Assembly (NCBI GenBank): GCA_021325435.1
Contig: JAJPHE010000070.1
Location: forward strand, 1-58,443
From: Actinomycetota bacterium
Lineage (GTDB): Bacteria > Actinomycetota > Acidimicrobiia > Acidimicrobiales > JAJPHE01
Direction: 5' to 3'
DNA length: 58,443 nt
Shown here: positions 49,565 through 58,443 of the stretch, piece by piece
How the letters are laid out: each line of letters begins with the position of its first letter
Position numbering within the stretch: position 1 is the stretch's first letter
Program-made: the position numbers and the translations under genes
Notes under the pieces: model-generated
The model's database searches: none
The model's input: the letters and a program-made list of their open reading frames with translations, nothing else
Told to the model about the DNA's origin: nothing

Positions 49565-50095
49565 GTCTCGGAGAGGAGCCAGCGCCGGGTGGTCCACCAG
49601 GGCGGCCGTGCCATGGACCCGCTCGATGGCTGCCACGGCGAGGACGGGCGCTCCGGGTCCGGTGTAGGCGCCCCGCCACTCGCCGCTGTGGTCGTCGAGG
49701 ACGACGGTGTCTGCGGCCAGATCGACATTGACGCCGGCCACCCACGACCACCAGTTGGACACGAGCCGCCCGCCGTCGCCGGCCAGGCGGGTGACGAGAC
49801 GGTGAGAGGTGACGAGGCTGTCGCACCACCCCCAGTCCCGCCAGCGCGGCGACCCCGGTCGGATCTGGCCCGCCCCGTCGACCAGGTCGGGTGTGACGCC
49901 GAGGGTGGCGTAACGCATCCACTTCACCTCCCGGTACAGGACCTCGCTGGACTCCAGGACCACGCCCATCCCGTATGGGTTCACCGGCCCCGGGCGGCCC
50001 TCGTACATGTCCAGGGCGAGCTGGCGGGCGTCCTCGTAGGCACCTTGACGGGCCGCCCGCTCCCACTTCCGGTAGCGCCGGGTAGCTCGGCTCAC
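49490..50095 (-). CDS. Relaxase-linked hypothetical protein, PH-domain-like
   Basis: A 201-residue protein; GTG 50095 overlaps the relaxase stop (GTGA). The Arg-rich N-terminus RATRRYRKWERAARQGAY is followed by GMGVVLESSEVLYREVKWMR and CDSLVTSHRLVTRLAGDGG, then LVSNWWSWVAGVNVDLAADT and VVLDDHSGEW. This alternation of strands with a W-W motif resembles small bacterial PH/GRAM-like domains. That is a guess from pattern and not a confirmed family. Coupling to the relaxase implies a role in mobilisation. Its 3' end overlaps the winged-helix gene on the opposite strand. Confidence 0.65.
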   Translation of the reverse strand: MSRATRRYRKWERAARQGAYEDARQLALDMYEGRPGPVNPYGMGVVLESSEVLYREVKWMRYATLGVTPDLVDGAGQIRPGSPRWRDWGWCDSLVTSHRLVTRLAGDGGRLVSNWWSWVAGVNVDLAADTVVLDDHSGEWRGAYTGPGAPVLAVAAIERVHGTAALVDHPALAPLRDLTRRVGNPRRPPGTGPFVLTGGNR

Positions 50096-53000
50096 AGCGT
50101 CACTTCCCTTCCGGTCTCGACGTTCGGCCGTGTCACCTCGGGGACGGGTTGGTCGGGGGTGACTCCGGCCAGCCGGAGCGCCTCCAGACACGCCCGCCGG
50201 GCGCGGACCCGGTGGGCAGCCTGGGTGGCCGAGGCGACGTCGGACCTGGGACCCAGGACATGTTCGGAGGCGATCCCCCAGCGATCCCGGTAGGCGGCCA
50301 CTACCGCCACCCGCTCCCACCACGCCTCGGCGCCCGGTGGGTCTGGGGGTGGGTCCCCGAGGGGCCGGGTCCACGCCCGGCCGGACCTCACAGCCCCCTC
50401 GGCGAGGGCCCGGGCCCGGGCGGCCATGGCCTCTTCCCGCTCCCGCACTGCCCTGGCCAGATCCGCGTCTGCGATAGGTCCTGCTCGCACCGCGATGCCG
50501 GCGACCAGGCCCCGGCGGGGCTGCCAGTGTCCGCCGCTGGCCTGCTCCCAGCGCCACAGTCGGGCGCGGAGCACCGCGGCAGGGTCCTGCTCGGGCCCGA
50601 TGGGCCGGCCGGTGGCCAGCTCCGGCAGGGCGGCTTCTACCTCGAGGCCCCGATTCTCGGCGTCTCGTAGGGCGCCCAGGAACTCCGGCCAGACGAGTGA
50701 GTCCCGGGCCTTGGCGAGGACCTCGGTGGCCAGGCCCACTACGTCCAGCACCGACTCCCAGCGCTCGGCGGCGGCCGCCGCCACCAGGGCCTGGTGCTCC
50801 TTCACCAGCTGCTCGAAACCGGCGGCCTTCTCCCACTCGGCGGCTGCGGCCTGGTGGGCGGAAACATCGACGCCGCTCCGGGCGGCCACGGCCAGGAGGA
50901 CCTCGCGGGCCTCGAGGCGCTCGGGCGCGCCGTGGGCCATGTCCGCCCCGGCCGGCTCGGGCTCCACGTCCACGTACAGGCGGTTGGACTCCGAGGCGCG
51001 GGTGGCAGCCACGTACAGCGCCTCCCGGGTCATGCCCACCCCGACCACGGCGTGCGCGGTCTCGACATTGCGACCCTGGGCCGAATAGGCGGTGCAGGCG
51101 TAGCCCAGCTCCACGTGGGCATCCACGTAGCTGGCGGGGAGCACGACCAGCCCGGCCCCCTCGGCCCGCCGCAGGGTCATGGAGCCATCCTCGTGGGTGG
51201 CTGTGACAACCCAGCGGTCCCGGTTTCGCACCCAGCCCCCATCCGGCGTGCGCAGGCGACGATCGTTGCGCCGGGTGACCACGACATCTCCCGGCCCCGC
51301 CACCGAGCCGTCGGCCAGGGTGATGCCGTCCGGGGCGACGGCTCCGGCCGCGACCCGGTCCGAGCGGGCCCGCCGGTTGAGCTCAGCCACGGTCCCGATG
51401 TCCTGGGCGATCATGAGCGAGGCCTTGCCCGTCTCCGCATCGGCCTTCCAGGCCAGGTATGCAGCCTCGAGCATCTCGGCCCGGTTGCCCGCGGCCACCC
51501 GGTCATGGGCCAGGTAGGCGTCCAGGGCCTCGGGTCGCCCGACCCGCAGCTCCACGCTGGCACGGCGCTCCCAGCCCGCCCGGAACCGGTGCACCTCGGA
51601 GAGCTGAGGCGCCGGGGCTCGGTCCTCGACCAGCAAGCCGAAGGCGCCGCCGGCGTCCACGGCGTCGAGCTGGGCCCAGTCTCCAACGAGGAGCACCTTG
51701 GCCCCGGCCTCGGCGGCATGGGCGACGAGGTGGTCCAGGGCGAAGGTCCCAGCCAAGCTGGCTTCGTCGACCACCAAGAGGCTCCCGGGAGCCAGGCTCC
51801 AGCGTGCCAGCTCTGTTACCGCCTCGGCGATCCGCTGGGTCAGCGACAGACGGGCCGGCTCGCCAAGGCGACCGCCAAGACGACTCTGCAGGCGCTCGAT
51901 CTCGGCCCGCCGGGCGTCCGCCCGCTCCAGCTCGGTGAGCCACTTGGCGGTGTTGTCGGTGGCGATCCCCAGCTCGTCAGCCAGGGCGGCCGCGGCGGAG
52001 GCCGAGGGGGCCAGCCCGCGCACCGAGCCCGCCCCATGCTCGGCCTCCCAGGCGGCGAGGAGGCCGGCCAGGGTTGTGGTCTTGCCCGTGCCCGCCGGAC
52101 CCACGAGCACGTCCAGGACGCGCCCGGAGGTGGCGATCTGCTCCACCGCCACCGCTTGGTCGACCCCGAGCCCGTAGGGCCGACCCGGCAGAGCCGCCTC
52201 GCAGACCGCCGCCACCGTCTCGAAGCCGAGGCGCGGGCCCGAGCCGTTCCGGCTGGCGGCGAGGAGTCGGGCCTCGGCGTCGAGGAGATCGGCGGTCGTG
52301 TAGGCCCAGACGGCAGCGGGGGCGAACTGGCTGGAACCGTCGGGGCTACGGAAGCGCTCGGGGACATGGGTGAGCTCCGGTGGGGTGAGCTTCACGGCCA
52401 TCGACAGCGCGAGGGCCACGGCGCGCTCGGCCACCCGGGCCCGCTCGCCCCGGGCGAAGAGGACCCCGTGCAGCTCCCGCTCCACATCGGCATAGATGTT
52501 GGGGACGGAGAACACCGAGCGGGTCTCCGAGCGCCGGGCCAGGGCCGCCCGGGCCACGTCGTCCAGCATGGCGTCGGTGAGGTCGTCCGAGCGCAGGGCG
52601 GGTAGGTCCGAGCGCCCCGCCAGGCTGGCCACCCAGGAGGCCGGCTCGTCGCACACCCAGGGCCGAGCCCGCTCTGTCCACTCCTCGGTCATCTCGGCCA
52701 GGGACCGGTGCAGCTTGGCCCTACGCGTCTCGCCCCAGGCAGCGCGATGTATCCGGCCCGCCTCGACCGGAGTCGGCTTCCGTCCCCGCGCCGAGGCGAA
52801 CTCGGCGGTCTTGCGGGCGATCACCGCCTCGATGGCCTGGGTGCGCCGGGAGAACTCGGCGATCAGATCGACCGGCGTGCCCTCCACCTCCCGGGTGACG
52901 TCCCGCCCGGCCACGGTGGGGGTCTCCCGCCACGCCACCCCGAAGCGCTCGGTCAGGAGGTCCTCGACCACTCCCACATGGCGCTCGGATAAGGCCACCA

Positions 53001-53643
53001 CCCAGGTGTGCAGGCCCCGGCTGTCGAGTGTCCGCCACCGGCCGTCGGATGCGGTCTGGGCCCGGTTCAGCACCACCACGTGGTGGTGCAGCTGGGGATC
53101 GCCGTCGCGGCTCTCGTAGTGCATCCAGGCGCTGGCCACCACGCCGCGGATGCCCTCGCTGCGCACGCCCTGGGCTCCGGTGCGGGTGCGGAACACGCGG
53201 TCCTCGGCCCAGGTGAGAACCTCCGCATACGCCTGGGCGCAGATGTCCTCGATCACGGTCTTGGTCCCCCGATCCGCCATGGCCCAGGCGACCGAGACCG
53301 ACTTGGGCACCGAGAAGGTGAGGTCGAAGCCGGCCACCGGGGCCTTGCGGGTGGCGGCCGGGGCCCGTCCCAGGGTCTTTTCGGTCACGGGGTCGGCGAG
53401 CTGGCCGAGCATGCGCGCCAGGGCCTCCGGGGACACCTGGTCCCCCACCTTGACTGCGCCGGGATGGGTCCCCAAGCCGTCCAGCCCCCGCCCGCAGAAC
53501 CGCCCCGGCGGGGTGCCGGGGGCGGCGTAGTAGCGGGCCGAGTCGGCGCCCAGGCGGATCTCGCCGGCGTCGGGCGTGACGCTTTCGATGAGGTACTGCC
53601 ATGCGTTGCCGCCCATTTTCAAGGGCCTGCCCATGGTCAGCAT
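50092..53643 (-). CDS. MobF-family conjugative relaxase/helicase (TraA-like)
   Basis: A 1183-residue protein from ATG 53643. The relaxase domain (1-300) has tandem Tyr38-Tyr39 (SARYYAAPG), FDLTFSVPKSVSVAWAMADR, and the metal-binding His cluster DPQLHHHVVVLNRAQ (His186-188, with His175 nearby). The SF1 helicase part has VGPAGTGKTTTLAGLL (Walker A, 515-522), LLVVDEASLAG and VLLVGDWAQLDAVDAGGAF. The C-terminal motif VELGYACTAYSAQGRNVETA precedes a coiled C-terminal region. It nicks oriT, binds the 5' end and unwinds DNA for transfer. The family is typical of actinobacterial integrative elements and plasmids. No coupling protein or secretion genes are in view. Confidence 0.93.
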   Translation of the reverse strand: MLTMGRPLKMGGNAWQYLIESVTPDAGEIRLGADSARYYAAPGTPPGRFCGRGLDGLGTHPGAVKVGDQVSPEALARMLGQLADPVTEKTLGRAPAATRKAPVAGFDLTFSVPKSVSVAWAMADRGTKTVIEDICAQAYAEVLTWAEDRVFRTRTGAQGVRSEGIRGVVASAWMHYESRDGDPQLHHHVVVLNRAQTASDGRWRTLDSRGLHTWVVALSERHVGVVEDLLTERFGVAWRETPTVAGRDVTREVEGTPVDLIAEFSRRTQAIEAVIARKTAEFASARGRKPTPVEAGRIHRAAWGETRRAKLHRSLAEMTEEWTERARPWVCDEPASWVASLAGRSDLPALRSDDLTDAMLDDVARAALARRSETRSVFSVPNIYADVERELHGVLFARGERARVAERAVALALSMAVKLTPPELTHVPERFRSPDGSSQFAPAAVWAYTTADLLDAEARLLAASRNGSGPRLGFETVAAVCEAALPGRPYGLGVDQAVAVEQIATSGRVLDVLVGPAGTGKTTTLAGLLAAWEAEHGAGSVRGLAPSASAAAALADELGIATDNTAKWLTELERADARRAEIERLQSRLGGRLGEPARLSLTQRIAEAVTELARWSLAPGSLLVVDEASLAGTFALDHLVAHAAEAGAKVLLVGDWAQLDAVDAGGAFGLLVEDRAPAPQLSEVHRFRAGWERRASVELRVGRPEALDAYLAHDRVAAGNRAEMLEAAYLAWKADAETGKASLMIAQDIGTVAELNRRARSDRVAAGAVAPDGITLADGSVAGPGDVVVTRRNDRRLRTPDGGWVRNRDRWVVTATHEDGSMTLRRAEGAGLVVLPASYVDAHVELGYACTAYSAQGRNVETAHAVVGVGMTREALYVAATRASESNRLYVDVEPEPAGADMAHGAPERLEAREVLLAVAARSGVDVSAHQAAAAEWEKAAGFEQLVKEHQALVAAAAAERWESVLDVVGLATEVLAKARDSLVWPEFLGALRDAENRGLEVEAALPELATGRPIGPEQDPAAVLRARLWRWEQASGGHWQPRRGLVAGIAVRAGPIADADLARAVREREEAMAARARALAEGAVRSGRAWTRPLGDPPPDPPGAEAWWERVAVVAAYRDRWGIASEHVLGPRSDVASATQAAHRVRARRACLEALRLAGVTPDQPVPEVTRPNVETGREVTL

Positions 53644-53667
53644 CGGACTTCTCACCACCGCCCTTCT

Positions 53668-53699
53668 CGTCCCGTCAGGGCCTCTCGCGCTACGGGACG
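53668..53699. other. Candidate oriT hairpin upstream of the relaxase
   Basis: CGTCCCGT (53668-53675) and ACGGGACG (53692-53699) are an 8-bp inverted repeat with a 16-nt loop, 25 bp before the relaxase ATG. An inverted repeat next to a relaxase gene is a common oriT form. It overlaps the regulatory element at 53678-53709, so promoter function is equally possible. Confidence 0.4.
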
Positions 53700-53709
53700 G
53701 AGGTGGCGA
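53678..53709 (-). promoter_or_regulatory. 32-bp shared upstream element, copy 1 (relaxase side)
   Basis: On the minus strand this reads TCGCCACCTCCGTCCCGTAG, then 4 variable nt, then AGAGGCCC, ending 34 nt before the relaxase ATG. The same 20 + 4 + 8 arrangement occurs on the plus strand at 54559-54590, also 34 nt before an ATG. Identity is 28 of 32 positions. Confidence 0.75.
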
Positions 53710-53983
53710 AATCCGCGCCATCACACTGACCGAAGGCCGCCTTGGCAACGCCGCTTTCGGGGCCCGCGGCACCCGCCGCCGCGGACGCTTTTGGAAAAGT
53801 GCCAGATGTCCATGACGGGGGTCTGGAGGGGGGAGCGGACTTGGGGCTCTGACGAGGGGGTTGGTGGGGGCGGCCGGGACCGTGGCGAGGGCGTGGTTTG
53901 GGTCGTGGTGACGGTGGGTCGTGGGCGCGGGTCGGCGTTTGAGGTCAACCGCGCGGCGCAGCACCTGGCTACGGTGCGCGCCG
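53710..53983. other. Spacer between relaxase and plus-strand module
   Basis: Part of a 340-bp gene-free stretch (53644-53983) that carries the relaxase 5' elements. It includes an AT-richer patch TTTTGGAAAAGTG near 53790 and a run of GT/GGG repeats at 53815-53940. Nothing coding was supported. Confidence 0.5.
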
Positions 53984-54496
53984 ATGACCGAAGCCCGCAG
54001 CGAAGCCCAGCGCCGGCACGCGGCGATGCTGCACGCCGAAGCGCCGCTGTGGCGCGACTGGCAACGCGGGCTCGGCTGGCTCGCGGCGGCCGCCCAGCGA
54101 GAGGCCCACCGGCGGGCCCGCTGGGAGCGCCGCATCGCCCGGGCCATGCGGGGGGTCAGCGCCGAGGCGTGGTGGGGCGCGAACACCCGCATCGAGGCCG
54201 GCGAGCTCTCCGCCGGCCCGAGCCCCCAGGCCCAGCGCGTCGCCCGGGTGGTGCACGTCACGCGCTCCGAGGTGCTCGGGCTCATCTCCGACCGGGACCA
54301 GGAGATGGCCAAGCTCGCCGTTGTGGGGGAGGAGGCGGAGGCGGCCCTGCGCGTCGCCACCCGCGGGCTGGTCGAGGTCTTCGGCCCGGCCCAGACGGCC
54401 GAGGCCCTGGGTCTTCCGCTGGACATGGTGCGCACGCTTTGCTCTGCCCGGCCGCTCAGCTCGAGCCAGACCGCCGTCCTCCGCCGGGCGTACTGA
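53984..54496 (+). CDS. Hypothetical helical protein with C-terminal HTH-like segment
   Basis: About 170 residues from ATG 53984. The middle is strongly helical and Arg/Ala/Glu-rich (RRHAAMLHAEAPLWRDWQRG; AQREAHRRARWERRIARAMR). The C-terminal stretch EVFGPAQTAEALGLPLDMVR resembles a helix-turn-helix and parallels the end of the protein at 54625. It lies between the two inverted copies of the shared element and so may be inserted or belong to the module's regulator set. No known family is recognised. Confidence 0.6.
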   Translation: MTEARSEAQRRHAAMLHAEAPLWRDWQRGLGWLAAAAQREAHRRARWERRIARAMRGVSAEAWWGANTRIEAGELSAGPSPQAQRVARVVHVTRSEVLGLISDRDQEMAKLAVVGEEAEAALRVATRGLVEVFGPAQTAEALGLPLDMVRTLCSARPLSSSQTAVLRRAY

Positions 54497-54558
54497 CCCA
54501 CCTCCACCGCGGCCGGTCTCGTCGAGGTCCCAGCACGCGCGAAGGGTCTCTCTGTAAA

Positions 54559-54590
54559 TCGCCACCTCCGTCCCGTAGGTCAAGAGGCCC
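54559..54590 (+). promoter_or_regulatory. 32-bp shared upstream element, copy 2 (operon side)
   Basis: TCGCCACCTCCGTCCCGTAG, 4 variable nt (GTCA), AGAGGCCC; 34 nt before ATG 54625. It is the plus-strand twin of copy 1 and has the same orientation and distance relative to its gene. It may be a promoter, an operator or an RNA leader element. Confidence 0.75.
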
Positions 54591-54624
54591 CATCAGGGGG
54601 TGGGACGAGCCAAGGAGGCGATCG

Positions 54625-54888
54625 ATGCCAGCTCCCCGAAGCGCCGAGGCGGAGGCCCGGGCCGCACGGATTGCCGAGCAGGCCCGGCGCGAGCGCGCCG
54701 CCCTGGCCGAGCTGGACCGGGCGGCGGCCCGCCTGGCCTCGGCCGAGCAGGTCCTGGCCGAGGCGCAGGAGGCCCACCGGCGGGCTCTCGCCACCTATGC
54801 CCGGGACACCGGCGCCGAGCGGGCCGCCCGCGTGCTCGGTCTACGGGTGCACGAGCTGCGTCGGCTGGTCAAGGAGTCCGGCTCGTGA
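54625..54888 (+). CDS. Coiled-coil plus HTH small protein (first gene of the mobilisation operon)
   Basis: An 87-residue protein with AAGGAGG 7 nt before ATG 54625. The N-terminal two-thirds form a continuous Ala/Glu/Arg coiled coil (EAEARAARIAEQARRERAAL). The end is a short HTH-like unit GAERAARVLGLRVHELRRLV. The shape suggests a DNA-binding accessory protein, for example a relaxosome or regulatory factor; this is inferred from context. It is followed by four genes, each starting with GTGA inside the previous stop. Confidence 0.7.
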   Translation: MPAPRSAEAEARAARIAEQARRERAALAELDRAAARLASAEQVLAEAQEAHRRALATYARDTGAERAARVLGLRVHELRRLVKESGS

Positions 54889-55226
54889 GCCGGCCGGAGC
54901 ACCTGCACGGCGACGACTGCCCCGACGCTCTCCGCATCCTCGAGGCCCTGGCCCGGGGACGGGAGCTTCCGGGGATCGAGCCCACCGAGACCGGCGCCTG
55001 GGTGGACTGGGACGAGTTGTTGGGCTCGTGGCTTTCGTCCACCGAGAAGGCCACGGTCATGATCGCGTCCGGGGTGGCCCGGGCCGAGCGCCAGGGCGGC
55101 CTGCCCTACGGGGTGATCCCGGCCGTCGGGGCCGCCCTGGCCGGGCTGTCCACGAACCGTTCCCTCCCGCAGCGCAGCGGAATGGGAGCGCTCCCGGCAT
55201 TGCCGGACCTGGGGCCCGACCTGTGA
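54885..55226 (+). CDS. Hypothetical protein, mobilisation operon gene 2
   Basis: A 113-residue protein starting GTG 54885 (overlap GTGA). The N-terminus RPEHLHGDDCPDALRILEAL is followed by TGAWVDWDELLGSWLSSTEK and ATVMIASGVARAERQGGLPY. It is mainly helical with no signal peptide. No family is recognised. The C-terminus is low-complexity Pro/Leu/Gly and may be disordered. Confidence 0.65.
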   Translation: MSRPEHLHGDDCPDALRILEALARGRELPGIEPTETGAWVDWDELLGSWLSSTEKATVMIASGVARAERQGGLPYGVIPAVGAALAGLSTNRSLPQRSGMGALPALPDLGPDL

Positions 55227-55540
55227 GCGGTCTCGGCGCGCCCTACCACGAGGACGATGGGGCCGGGCTGTGTCGCAACATCTGGCGCATCCCGCCCGGG
55301 GCGTTGACGGGCGCCAGGCACCCCGCCGTCATGCCGGCCGAGCTGGCCCGGCGCTGCATCCGCCGGTCCACCTGGCCCGGGGAGTCGGTGCTGGATCCCT
55401 TCGCCGGCTGGGGAACCACGCTTCTCGCCGCCCGCCAGCTCGGCCGACGCGCCCTGGGGATCGAGGTCAGCGGGGCCCACTGCGAGCTCGCCGCCCGCCG
55501 CCTGGCCGAGGGGGTCTTCGACTTCGGGGGCGCGGCGTGA
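55223..55540 (+). CDS. Mini DNA methyltransferase-like protein (SAM-binding half only)
   Basis: A 105-residue protein starting GTG 55223 (GTGA overlap). It carries ARHPAVMPAELARRCIRRST and SVLDPFAGWGTTLLAARQLG (motif I, 58-66), then ALGIEVSGAHCELAARRLAE. This is the C-terminal part of an N4-cytosine/N6-adenine DNA methyltransferase of the D21-class type. The DPPY/SPPY catalytic motif expected upstream is absent, and the protein starts cleanly rather than after a stop. It is either a degenerate remnant or a SAM-binding protein that needs a partner. The operon context argues for function. Confidence 0.65.
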   Translation: MSGLGAPYHEDDGAGLCRNIWRIPPGALTGARHPAVMPAELARRCIRRSTWPGESVLDPFAGWGTTLLAARQLGRRALGIEVSGAHCELAARRLAEGVFDFGGAA

Positions 55541-57330
55541 GCCCAGGGCACACCCCCACCGAGGAGCAGCAGAAGGCCGTCGACGCCTTCGTCGCCGGCG
55601 GGACGGTGGCGATCACCGCCGGGGCGGGCGCGGGAAAGACCTCAACCCTGCGCCTCCTGGCCGAGAGCCGCCCGGCCGGGCGGGGCCTGTACCTGGCGTT
55701 CAACAAGGCCGTGCAAGTGGAGGCGGCCCGGTCCTTCCCCGCCAACGTGACGGCCAAGACCGCCCATGCCCTCGCCTTCCGCACCCACGGTCTTCCGCTG
55801 CGGGCCCGCCTGGGCGGGCCGCGACTCTCCGCCGCGCAGGTCGCCCAGGCGCTGGGGATGGGTCCGGTCATGCTGGATACGGCCGAGGCCACGGTGGTGG
55901 TCCAGCCCGCCCAGGTGGCCGCCCTGGCCATGGGGTCGGTGCTGCGTTTCTGTCGCTCGGCGGATCCCGAGATCGGGCCGAGCCACTTCGTCGCCCCCCA
56001 AGGCGCCGCCGGCCTGGAGCTCTCCACCTTGGCCGAGGCGGTACTGGGCGGGGCCCGCCGTGCCTGGGAGGACCTCACCAGCCACACCGGGCGTCTCAAA
56101 GCCGCCCACGACCACTACCTCAAGGCCTGGGCACTCAGCGGGCCGGGCCTGGGCTTCGACTTCATCCTCTACGACGAGGCCCAGGACGCCGATCCCTGCA
56201 TCGCCGGGGTGGTTCTGGCCCAGGAGGCCCAGCTAGTGGCCGTGGGCGACCCGCACCAGGCGCTCTACGCGTGGCGGGGCAACGCCGACCTCCTCTCGGC
56301 GCTGCCGGCGGACCACCGGGTCAGCCTCACCCGGTCCTGGCGCTTCGGCGACCCCATCGCCGCCGAGGCCAACCTGTGGCTGGCGTTGCTGGGAGCGGAG
56401 CTGCGCATTAGGGGCAACCCGGCCCGGGCCTCGCGCCTCGAGGCCCTGGAGGCGCCCGACGCCGTGCTCACCCGCACCAACGCCGGCGCGGTGCGGGCCG
56501 TCATGGCGGCGCACGAGGCCGGGCGGAAGGTCGCCCTGGTCGGCGGAGGGCGCGAGGTCCTGCGGTTGGCCGAGGCCGCCCATCGCATGGCCGAGGGTCT
56601 GCCCTCGGGCCATCCCGAGCTGGTGGCGTTCTCCACCTGGGACCAGGTGGTGGACTACGCCGAGTCCGACCCCTCGGGCTCGGACCTGGCCACCTCGGTC
56701 AAGCTCGTCTGCCGCTTCGGGCCTGACGCGGTGATCGAGGCCGTCGGCGGAGCGGTCACCGAGGCCCGGGCCAACCTCGTCGTCTCCACCGTGCACAAGG
56801 CCAAGGGCCGGGAGTGGGACCGGGTACGAGCGGGCGACGACTTCCCCGCTCCGACGGAGCACGACGGCGCCGCAGGCATGCTGGCAAGGTCTGAGGCGAT
56901 GCTCGGCTACGTGGCCGTCACCCGTGCCCGCAGCCTCCTCGACGTCGGCGGGCTGGGTTGGATCCATGGCCACGCCGCCCGCCACGGGATCACGACCAAG
57001 TCGGCGGGGCCGGGCGTCGAGAGCCCCGACCGGGTCCTGGCCGCGGTGGGCTTGGCCCTGGGCATGGCCGCCAGGGTGGACGGCGAGCGGGGCATCTGGC
57101 GGCTCGACCACTTCTCCAAGGACGGCTCGGTCACCGCCTTCGGCGGGCCAGCCGGACAGTGGCGCAGCTTCCGGCCCGAGTGGTGCTATCCCGCCGAGCA
57201 GCGCGGCCGAGGGGGCCGGATGCGCCGTGGCGTGCTGCCGGCGGAGCGCCGGGGCCTGCGGGCCGCCTGGCGAGCTGAGCGGGGCCTCGTCGCCCCGGAG
57301 TCACCGATCTCGAAGGAGGTCCGATCGTGA
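55537..57330 (+). CDS. UvrD/Rep-family helicase, mobilisation operon gene 4
   Basis: A 597-residue SF1A-like helicase from GTG 55537 (GTGA overlap). Motif Q/I is TPTEEQQKAVDAFV and AITAGAGAGKTSTLRLLAES; motif II is FILYDEAQDADPCI; motif III is LVAVGDPHQALYAWRGNADL; motif IV-V is ANLVVSTVHKAKGREWDRVR; motif VI is MLGYVAVTRARSLLD. It is shorter than UvrD and looks like the element-borne helicases that assist transfer or repair. The C-terminal ~110 residues are unique and basic. Confidence 0.85.
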   Translation: MSPGHTPTEEQQKAVDAFVAGGTVAITAGAGAGKTSTLRLLAESRPAGRGLYLAFNKAVQVEAARSFPANVTAKTAHALAFRTHGLPLRARLGGPRLSAAQVAQALGMGPVMLDTAEATVVVQPAQVAALAMGSVLRFCRSADPEIGPSHFVAPQGAAGLELSTLAEAVLGGARRAWEDLTSHTGRLKAAHDHYLKAWALSGPGLGFDFILYDEAQDADPCIAGVVLAQEAQLVAVGDPHQALYAWRGNADLLSALPADHRVSLTRSWRFGDPIAAEANLWLALLGAELRIRGNPARASRLEALEAPDAVLTRTNAGAVRAVMAAHEAGRKVALVGGGREVLRLAEAAHRMAEGLPSGHPELVAFSTWDQVVDYAESDPSGSDLATSVKLVCRFGPDAVIEAVGGAVTEARANLVVSTVHKAKGREWDRVRAGDDFPAPTEHDGAAGMLARSEAMLGYVAVTRARSLLDVGGLGWIHGHAARHGITTKSAGPGVESPDRVLAAVGLALGMAARVDGERGIWRLDHFSKDGSVTAFGGPAGQWRSFRPEWCYPAEQRGRGGRMRRGVLPAERRGLRAAWRAERGLVAPESPISKEVRS

Positions 57331-57815
57331 GCACACTTTCATACGACGGGCTCGTCGCCGCCTTGCGGGCCGGTGCCGAGGGCAGCTACTCCGCCGAGGC
57401 GGCCGTCGAGCTGCTTATCGCCCATGGCAGCTGGCTTCGCCGCTCCGACTTCCTGAGAGGCGCGATCGAGGTCACGCCGGCGGTGGCGCATACCGGGCAG
57501 CGGCACGCCTTCGTGGATTGGCACGCCGGCCTCGCTGCCGACTTGCCGGCGTCGTCGAGCGAACGCCAGATACTGGCTGTTGCAGCCGAGCTTGCCGGCG
57601 TCGACTCACACCGCACGCTCGGGGATCTCGTGACCGGCCTCGACGACACGAACATCACCTTGGTGATCTGTGCGGTGCTGCACGCGAGAAGCGGTCGCGG
57701 AGCCATCCGCCTTGTGCTGGCCCCGTTCGGTGGAGCGGACTTCGACCTGCGGCTCACTCAGAGAACCGGGCCGTGGATAGGTGAGAGTCTAGAACCGCCT
57801 GGCATGCAACAGTGA
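57327..57815 (+). CDS. Hypothetical protein, last gene of the mobilisation operon
   Basis: A 162-residue protein; GTG 57327 overlaps the helicase stop, with GAAGGAGG upstream. It is predicted alpha-helical with AAVELLIAHGSWLRRSDFLR and VTGLDDTNITLVICAVLHAR. No known domain was identified. The position suggests a partner of the helicase. Confidence 0.65.
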   Translation: MSTLSYDGLVAALRAGAEGSYSAEAAVELLIAHGSWLRRSDFLRGAIEVTPAVAHTGQRHAFVDWHAGLAADLPASSSERQILAVAAELAGVDSHRTLGDLVTGLDDTNITLVICAVLHARSGRGAIRLVLAPFGGADFDLRLTQRTGPWIGESLEPPGMQQ

Positions 57816-57974
57816 CGATCACGAGCGGCGTTATGTGCGGGCGATAGGTACGCAGGCATGCAGTACCGAACCGTCGATCGGGGCGGGTCGCGCACGAGAT
57901 CACAAGGGACGGCAGTGCGACCGAGATTCCCTGCTCTGCTCGCTCCTCCGAACCGCGGGGTCTGTAGGGAGGGG

Positions 57975-58253
57975 TCAGCTGACTTTCAGGTATTGACGCA
58001 GGGCTTGTCTTATGACCTCCGAGGTCGTGGTCTTATCCGCGACGGCCCGTTGGTCCACGGCTCTGCGAAGATCGGGGTCGAGGCGCACCGGCACCATCTC
58101 GGCGGGTCCCGACCCGATCGTCGGGCGGCCGGGCCGTCGACGCAGCTTGGTTACGTCCAGGCCGGCCTCGGCCTCCCGGGCCATTTCCTGGAGGACCTCG
58201 TCGGTCAGCTCAACTCCGGTCTTGGATCGGCCGTAGGTCTTCTTCTTAGTCAT
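57975..58253 (-). CDS. Ribbon-helix-helix antitoxin-like protein
   Basis: A 92-residue protein from ATG 58253. The C-terminal half AEMVPVRLDPDLRRAVDQRA and TTTSEVIRQALRQYL is a CopG/RHH DNA-binding domain. The Lys-rich N-terminus TKKKTYGRSKTGVELTDEVL may bind the toxin. It overlaps the upstream gene's stop by 8 nt, as expected for the second gene of a toxin-antitoxin pair of the BrnT-BrnA order. It would repress its own promoter. Confidence 0.75.
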   Translation of the reverse strand: MTKKKTYGRSKTGVELTDEVLQEMAREAEAGLDVTKLRRRPGRPTIGSGPAEMVPVRLDPDLRRAVDQRAVADKTTTSEVIRQALRQYLKVS

Positions 58254-58443
58254 CGCTATCTCCTGAAGGCGGGAGTAACGACCGATAGCTCGGGCGCATG
58301 GGCATGGCGTGGATCACGATCTCGCTCCCGTCTTCTCTGAGTGACTGTCGCGATTGTTTCCCCAGCGCGATCACGCGGTCGTAGGCCGGGTCAGTCGCCG
58401 CAGGAGATAGCGGCTGTGGGCAGCCCAGATGAAGCCCTCGGTC
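58246..58443 (-). CDS. Partial toxin-like gene (cut by window edge)
   Basis: The last 65 codons of a gene entering from beyond the window, stop at 58246-58248. The C-terminus contains DGSEIVIHAMPMRPSYRSLL, the motif VIHAMPMR-x-Y-x-LL found at the end of small toxin-like proteins paired with RHH antitoxins. It overlaps the antitoxin start by 8 nt. The identity is inferred from that motif and the partner; the N-terminal part is not available. Confidence 0.6.
   Translation of the reverse strand, partial: DRGLHLGCPQPLSPAATDPAYDRVIALGKQSRQSLREDGSEIVIHAMPMRPSYRSLLPPSGDSDD

Follow-up and report, generated by a model that had tools for sequence, protein, structure and literature searches.

Why a relaxase gene and a five-gene operon, read in opposite directions, should carry nearly the same sequence ahead of their start codons is the question raised by the window (the whole 58,443-nt stretch of DNA analysed, contig C111 of a 160-contig genome). 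A first-pass annotation had described these twin elements, and both were found again with 0 mismatches to the pattern (copies c1 and c2, Table 1), each ending exactly 34 nt before its ATG (53643 on the minus strand, 54625 on the plus strand). A chance origin is unlikely, as had been argued, with 0 pattern matches expected (100 shuffles). The near-identity also stands, at 29 of 32 positions (91%) rather than the 28 reported; of the four intervening nucleotides given as variable, the third is a C in both copies.

A genome-wide search yielded five copies, and no further ones, of the 20-nt core TCGCCACCTCCGTCCCGTAG. Only these first 20 nt are common to four of the copies, and the fifth (c5, on contig C96) has one extra base (CCCGATAG); AGAGGCC is common to three. 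The core starts 62-66 nt before the start codon in all five copies, the distance from its TAG to the start codon being 46, 46, 42, 45 and 45 nt, and every copy (5/5) is co-directional with the downstream gene, an asymmetry and orientation of the stoperator type. K-mer motif discovery upstream of starts with a Shine-Dalgarno sequence was too noisy; in the Markov k-mer test, which was usable, the core word was the most over-represented 13-mer in the pieces of the mobile element (5 seen vs. 0.006 expected). Because the 20-nt sequence stands at a near-equal distance before five gene groups, a shared control switch for self-transfer is very probable. (Two matches with 1 mismatch, on contigs C44 and C76, resemble coding sequence and were rejected.)

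Synteny with related genomes indicates that the relaxase, pilus, anti-restriction, regulator and helicase gene groups belong to a single integrative conjugative element (ICE), the parts of which are distributed among contigs. They lie on C111, C96 and C140, with an adjoining tyrosine integrase, and synteny, not the assembly, suggests that the three contigs form a single element. In relatives of the same order (VirB4 50-82% identical) one syntenic unit comprises NlpC, pilin, TrbL, an EccE-like protein, VirB4, ArdC, coupling protein, HNH and primase, in some cases with the integrase, and in three relatives the relaxase is on the same contig as this unit. The ICE also encodes a WhiB protein (79 aa), the ATG of which is overlapped by the stop codon of the 32-aa ORF behind copy c4, as in translational coupling. 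Regarding an att site, C111 and C140 shared no words except the element and chance words. Additional TrwC-like relaxases, distant from that of the window, are encoded on contigs C65, C53 and C52 of the same genome (G000); more than one conjugative element is likely to be present.

Table 1. Coordinates of the element copies, genes and leaders of the ICE (window positions unless a contig or locus is named)
Feature	Position	Strand	Remarks
MOBF relaxase-helicase gene (TrwC, AAA_30)	50092-53643	-	Pfam TrwC, E 1.5e-68
Relaxase leader	53644-53712	-	predicted stems TCGCCACC (53709-53702)/GGTGGTGA (53659-53652) and CGTCCCGT (53699-53692)/ACGGGACG (53675-53668)
Copy c1	53678-53709	-	before relaxase; core 53690-53709, then CGCG, then AGAGGCCC
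170-aa gene between c1 and c2	53984-54496	+	no element copy in front
Operon leader	54556-54624	+	predicted MFE stems ATCGCC (54558-54563)/GGCGAT (54617-54622) and CGTCCC (54569-54574)/GGGACG (54602-54607)
Copy c2	54559-54590	+	before five-gene operon; core 54559-54578, then GTCA, then AGAGGCCC
Shine-Dalgarno sequence of operon leader	54612-54618		AAGGAGG
Operon gene 1, 87 aa, possible HTH protein	54625-54888	+	no Pfam match
Operon gene 2, 113 aa	54885-55226	+	
Operon gene 3, 105 aa, C-terminal part of N6/N4 DNA methylase	55223-55540	+	Pfam E 2.6e-20, profile 140-220 of 221
Operon gene 4, UvrD-like helicase	55537-57330	+	Pfam
Operon gene 5, 162 aa	57327-57815	+	
RHH gene	57975-58253	-	Pfam RHH_1, weak BrnA match; with 58260-58443 at contig end
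Copy c3	C140:1830		before ArdC-like anti-restriction gene (Pfam ArdcN), then coupling protein
Copy c4	C140:5944		before 32-aa ORF coupled to WhiB gene
32-aa ORF	L041:6009-6107 (C140)		stop overlaps ATG of WhiB gene
Copy c5	C96:4929		before DUF6112 pilin-like T4SS gene

The genes of the operon overlap; no relatives of the product of its first gene were found in 59 genomes. As a separate observation, the third gene is a stand-alone methylase fragment (the C-terminal 80 profile positions) inside a conjugation operon.

That the element is a genuine ICE-wide control element is held with high confidence. The proposal that a shared cis-element coordinates relaxase and operon is well supported by the five copies, their fixed spacing and orientation, their place at the heads of transfer units and a different shared element at corresponding sites of a sister ICE. 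Copies c1 and c2 share the extra blocks AGAGGCCC and GGGACGAG and are therefore duplicates, as a functionless dispersed repeat or a recent duplication would have it; such an origin is nevertheless barely credible, since all five copies are placed and oriented alike ahead of ICE genes and their flanks have diverged, no copies lie at random positions or orientations, and the sister ICE has an independent element at similar places.

The conservation in relatives envisaged by the first-pass annotation was found for the arrangement but not for the exact letters: the former recurs in relatives with a different sequence, and the latter gave only chance matches outside the genome. The 23-nt pattern, searched exactly and with 3 mismatches in 298 genomes of the order, showed no regulon elsewhere, its matches being at the background of the reversed pattern. 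The exact core had a single match in 84,980 GTDB species representatives, a chance match in coding sequence, and in IMG/VR the long pattern had none and a 17-mer one chance coding match. In the sister ICE of genome G010 (relaxase 42-44% and ardC 45% identical), four copies of a different 16-nt sequence, GGCGCACCTGACCGGC, precede the relaxase, the gene ahead of NlpC, a small gene and VirB4. The same element stands at corresponding places in G197, in two exact copies and others matching at 14-15/16 positions, with diverged flanks; the loci are L117/L118 (G010:C190) and L149/L150 (G197:C7), with four to five orthologous sites. Because the sister ICE has its own element at matching sites and the exact core occurs elsewhere only as chance matches, the element marks an ICE-wide regulon. 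(Sampled matches to the G010/G197 type in other genomes look like chance and were set aside.)

Regarding the closest ardC orthologues, CCCGTAGGAC (G045) or CCATTAGG (G206) is kept 43-47 nt before the start, the rest of the leader having changed; other copies of the two elements in their own genomes were not convincing. Before ICE genes generally, CC..TAGG was not significantly enriched (4/107, within the range of control motifs), and three of these 4 matches are ardC leaders. Genomes G296 and G221 have another common leader sequence before the pilin gene, in G296 also before ardC (L193:11223 and 16795; L189:6154), in which TGACGG(G)TTTTC is followed about 17 nt on by a GTAGTRGGG block. Lying about 76 nt before the start, this is possibly another shared leader element of bipartite build.

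A promoter, an RNA leader and an operator had all been offered as possible natures of the element. The conventional sigma-70 form of the first is not supported, the promoter scan of 53600-54700 having found none; the terminator scan likewise found no terminator, and both an RNA leader and an operator are compatible with the data. A promoter of an alternative sigma factor would read GGAAW as -35 and CGTAG as -10 with a normal leader of 35-40 nt, and the consensus [AC]GGAAW-N15-CGTAG would fit ECF-like spacing, with a normal distance to the ribosome-binding site. It is quite unlikely because the variation falls in the presumed -35 (GGATT, TGTAAA, CGAAA) and the presumed spacer is invariant, opposite to what a promoter would show, and no sigma factor was found among the ICE genes examined.

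The arms of the relaxase-leader stems are visible directly in the sequence, and the first-pass annotation had seen an oriT-like hairpin there. This reading is weakened, the stem CGTCCCGT/ACGGGACG being built from the element itself and being matched, 850 bp away, by CGTCCC/GGGACG at the operon copy; as part of a leader with a counterpart before the operon, the hairpin is therefore not specific to an oriT region. No nic site was identified. An element used as single-stranded DNA after transfer, either a hairpin promoter of the Frpo/ssi type or part of oriT, would suit a location before ardC and transfer genes, where hairpins can form, and anti-restriction genes are classical targets of single-stranded promoters (PMC11541004). 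It is nonetheless very improbable: the copies lie on both strands, so that those of relaxase and operon could not both be active on one transferred strand, the hairpins form no -35/-10, and the stems differ among copies.

In the reading tentatively preferred, the site would act in the transcript, as a leader RNA whose folding masks the ribosome-binding site and which a trans factor reads. The ICE, carried by a GC-rich bacterium that probably belongs to the Actinomycetota, would then have this element as a common control site in its 5' leaders, and the five transfer-related units, each headed by an element-bearing gene, would form one regulon. The core stretch WUCGCCACCUCC would pair with the gene's own ribosome-binding site and CCCGUAGG would be placed in an apical hairpin, several copies having a variable hairpin between the latter and the ribosome-binding site. 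All units would remain untranslated until a putative trans-acting factor, an ICE protein or RNA, recognises the invariant strand and opens the leader. A comparable known system is FinP/FinO of F-like plasmids, where transfer is controlled at the ribosome-binding site of the traJ leader RNA by one leader and an antisense RNA; here there are five leaders, and a genome search at 3 mismatches found no antisense copy able to encode a trans-acting RNA.

The core includes CCACCTCC, the complement of the Shine-Dalgarno sequence, which with moderate statistical support may mask the ribosome-binding site of every gene concerned. Against a control in which all five cores were permuted identically, the summed duplex of core and ribosome-binding region was -110.8 kcal/mol vs. 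-80 +/- 8 (fraction 0.0002; 0.003-0.007 in shorter windows), and the ensemble energy of the leaders was -156 vs. -126 +/- 7 (0 of 300), so that an identical core permutation in the five leaders costs 25-30 kcal/mol. Compared with random five-sets from 160 other Shine-Dalgarno-preceded starts of the genome, the native downstream segments pair better by ensemble energy (p 0.02); by duplex energy the same control gave p 0.054. Since any CCTCC will pair with any Shine-Dalgarno sequence, some of the signal is trivial. Covariation with the proposed partner is seen at the nucleotide preceding the core (A-U in c2 and c4, U-A in c3 and c5, U.G in c1), in a register chosen by the analyst. In the ardC leader of G045, which retains CCCGTAGGAC at a similar place, both arms are replaced together (GGCACCaCCCCcGC/GCGGGGaGGUGCC) and still pair (shuffled-arm p 0.005); that of G206 is laid out in the same way around CCATTAGG (p 0.07). 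In arm swaps between lineages the true pairs ranked only 6-13 of 120.

Regarding predicted structures, two long stems stack in c1 (fold z -3.6 and -3.0), the fold z being unremarkable for c2, c4 and c5 singly (-0.9, 0.1 and -0.8), and the 1-nt insertion of c5 falls in a predicted loop. The predicted folds of c3, c4 and the G206 ardC leader are three-way junctions consisting of the core with the ribosome-binding site, a CC-NNUA-GG hairpin and a variable hairpin. A more specific proposal, which we consider unlikely but worth stating, is an ICE leader RNA class absent from Rfam that heads transfer units, with a three-way junction in which P1 would mask the ribosome-binding site, the short CC-NNUA-GG hairpin would be the conserved recognition point, and one trans factor would switch conjugation on translationally. 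For window positions 50000-58443, nothing plausible was matched in Rfam with E values of up to 5, the best bit scores being far below gathering, and none at the gathering threshold in four ICE loci.

Pairing with the own ribosome-binding sites was not found for the sister element of G010/G197 (fraction 0.5-0.9), the relaxase copy of which is too near the start to mask a Shine-Dalgarno sequence, nor in two G123 leaders. Chiefly because of this sister-ICE result confidence in the RNA mode is not higher, and since the sister element lacks such folding, an oriented DNA operator of an ICE-encoded regulator is nearly as likely. The operator would be asymmetric, oriented with transcription and either placed in short intergenic gaps, stoperator-like, or overlapping a weak promoter; through coevolution of site and regulator, the site would differ from one ICE group to the next. 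The different 16-nt site of G010/G197 at the orthologous relaxase, small gene, VirB4 and pre-NlpC gene agrees with this, as do the position of the sites 14-30 nt past upstream stop codons within gene strings, the WhiB protein of the ICE and the asymmetric, oriented and partly intergenic nature of stoperators (PMC9283540). The 20-nt core is invariant and everything downstream of it has drifted between copies; an invariant 5' arm with drifting 3' arms suggests that a trans factor recognises the site, and this would be explained equally well by DNA binding. On the other hand, the core is non-palindromic and without an exact direct (dual) repeat, no repressor gene was identified, a fixed start-codon distance, nearly realised here, is not reported for stoperators, and the pairing statistics and compensated G045 arms are left unexplained. 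The leader RNA is favoured over the operator because of the near-constant start-codon distance, the pairing statistics and the G045 compensation.

Among described systems, the closest conjugation phenomenon that the element resembles, as a short version, is EGeRS1 of the pLS20-family conjugative plasmids of Bacillus (Firmicutes), a region of 400-600 bp with many inverted repeats that serves establishment genes only (PMC8708921). Both have several conserved copies in a single conjugative element, each placed in front of an operon, that of ardC among them (here five copies, one before ardC), and EGeRS1 is likewise foldable, without an evident sigma-A promoter and dependent on orientation (PMC8708921). 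The conserved part, however, is a 20-nt core plus about 45 nt here (shared sequence 20-32 nt) vs. 400-600 bp there, and relaxase, pilin and coupling-protein units are included here. EGeRS2, which likewise recurs as a short site upstream of ardC and further operons on a conjugative plasmid, has strong promoters and a dual heptamer TTATCCCnnTTATCCC bound by the RHH repressor Reg-p576 (PMC8708921), whereas here the core has no exact dual repeat and no promoter was recognised. The SAS/ESAS of cluster K mycobacteriophages are similarly asymmetric repeats at fixed places close to where translation starts in various genes of a single mobile element, but their 13-bp repeat includes the Shine-Dalgarno sequence and adjoins the start codon (PMC3203893), the present one being an anti-Shine-Dalgarno sequence 42-46 nt upstream. 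The stoperators of cluster A mycobacteriophages, 13-mers in >20 copies bound by an identified immunity repressor, share the short, asymmetric, transcription-oriented intergenic sites and the sequence variation between related elements (PMC9283540, PMC6550527), but are not tied to a fixed start-codon distance; the repressor bound at them halts elongation. By the features tested, the element is none of EGeRS, SAS/ESAS or stoperators.

Coordination of several transfer operons by ICEs of little-studied, uncultivated actinobacteria appears undescribed. The element allows the regulon of one ICE (relaxase, helicase operon, T4SS, ardC-coupling protein and WhiB-primase) to be delimited from nothing but the sequence and is a small site suited to a reporter test. 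If the RNA mode is true, a single translational switch, present at each of five units, would control conjugation; the DNA mode, if true, would amount to a stoperator-like system in an ICE, with group-specific sites in sister ICEs.

Two minor observations were made in the same genome. The RHH gene at the contig end is probably an antitoxin with a cut-off partner; alternatively, it could be a repressor. At G000:C39:19658-19932, three near-copies of a 23-nt word follow one another at a regular spacing of 126 nt and represent a tandem array.
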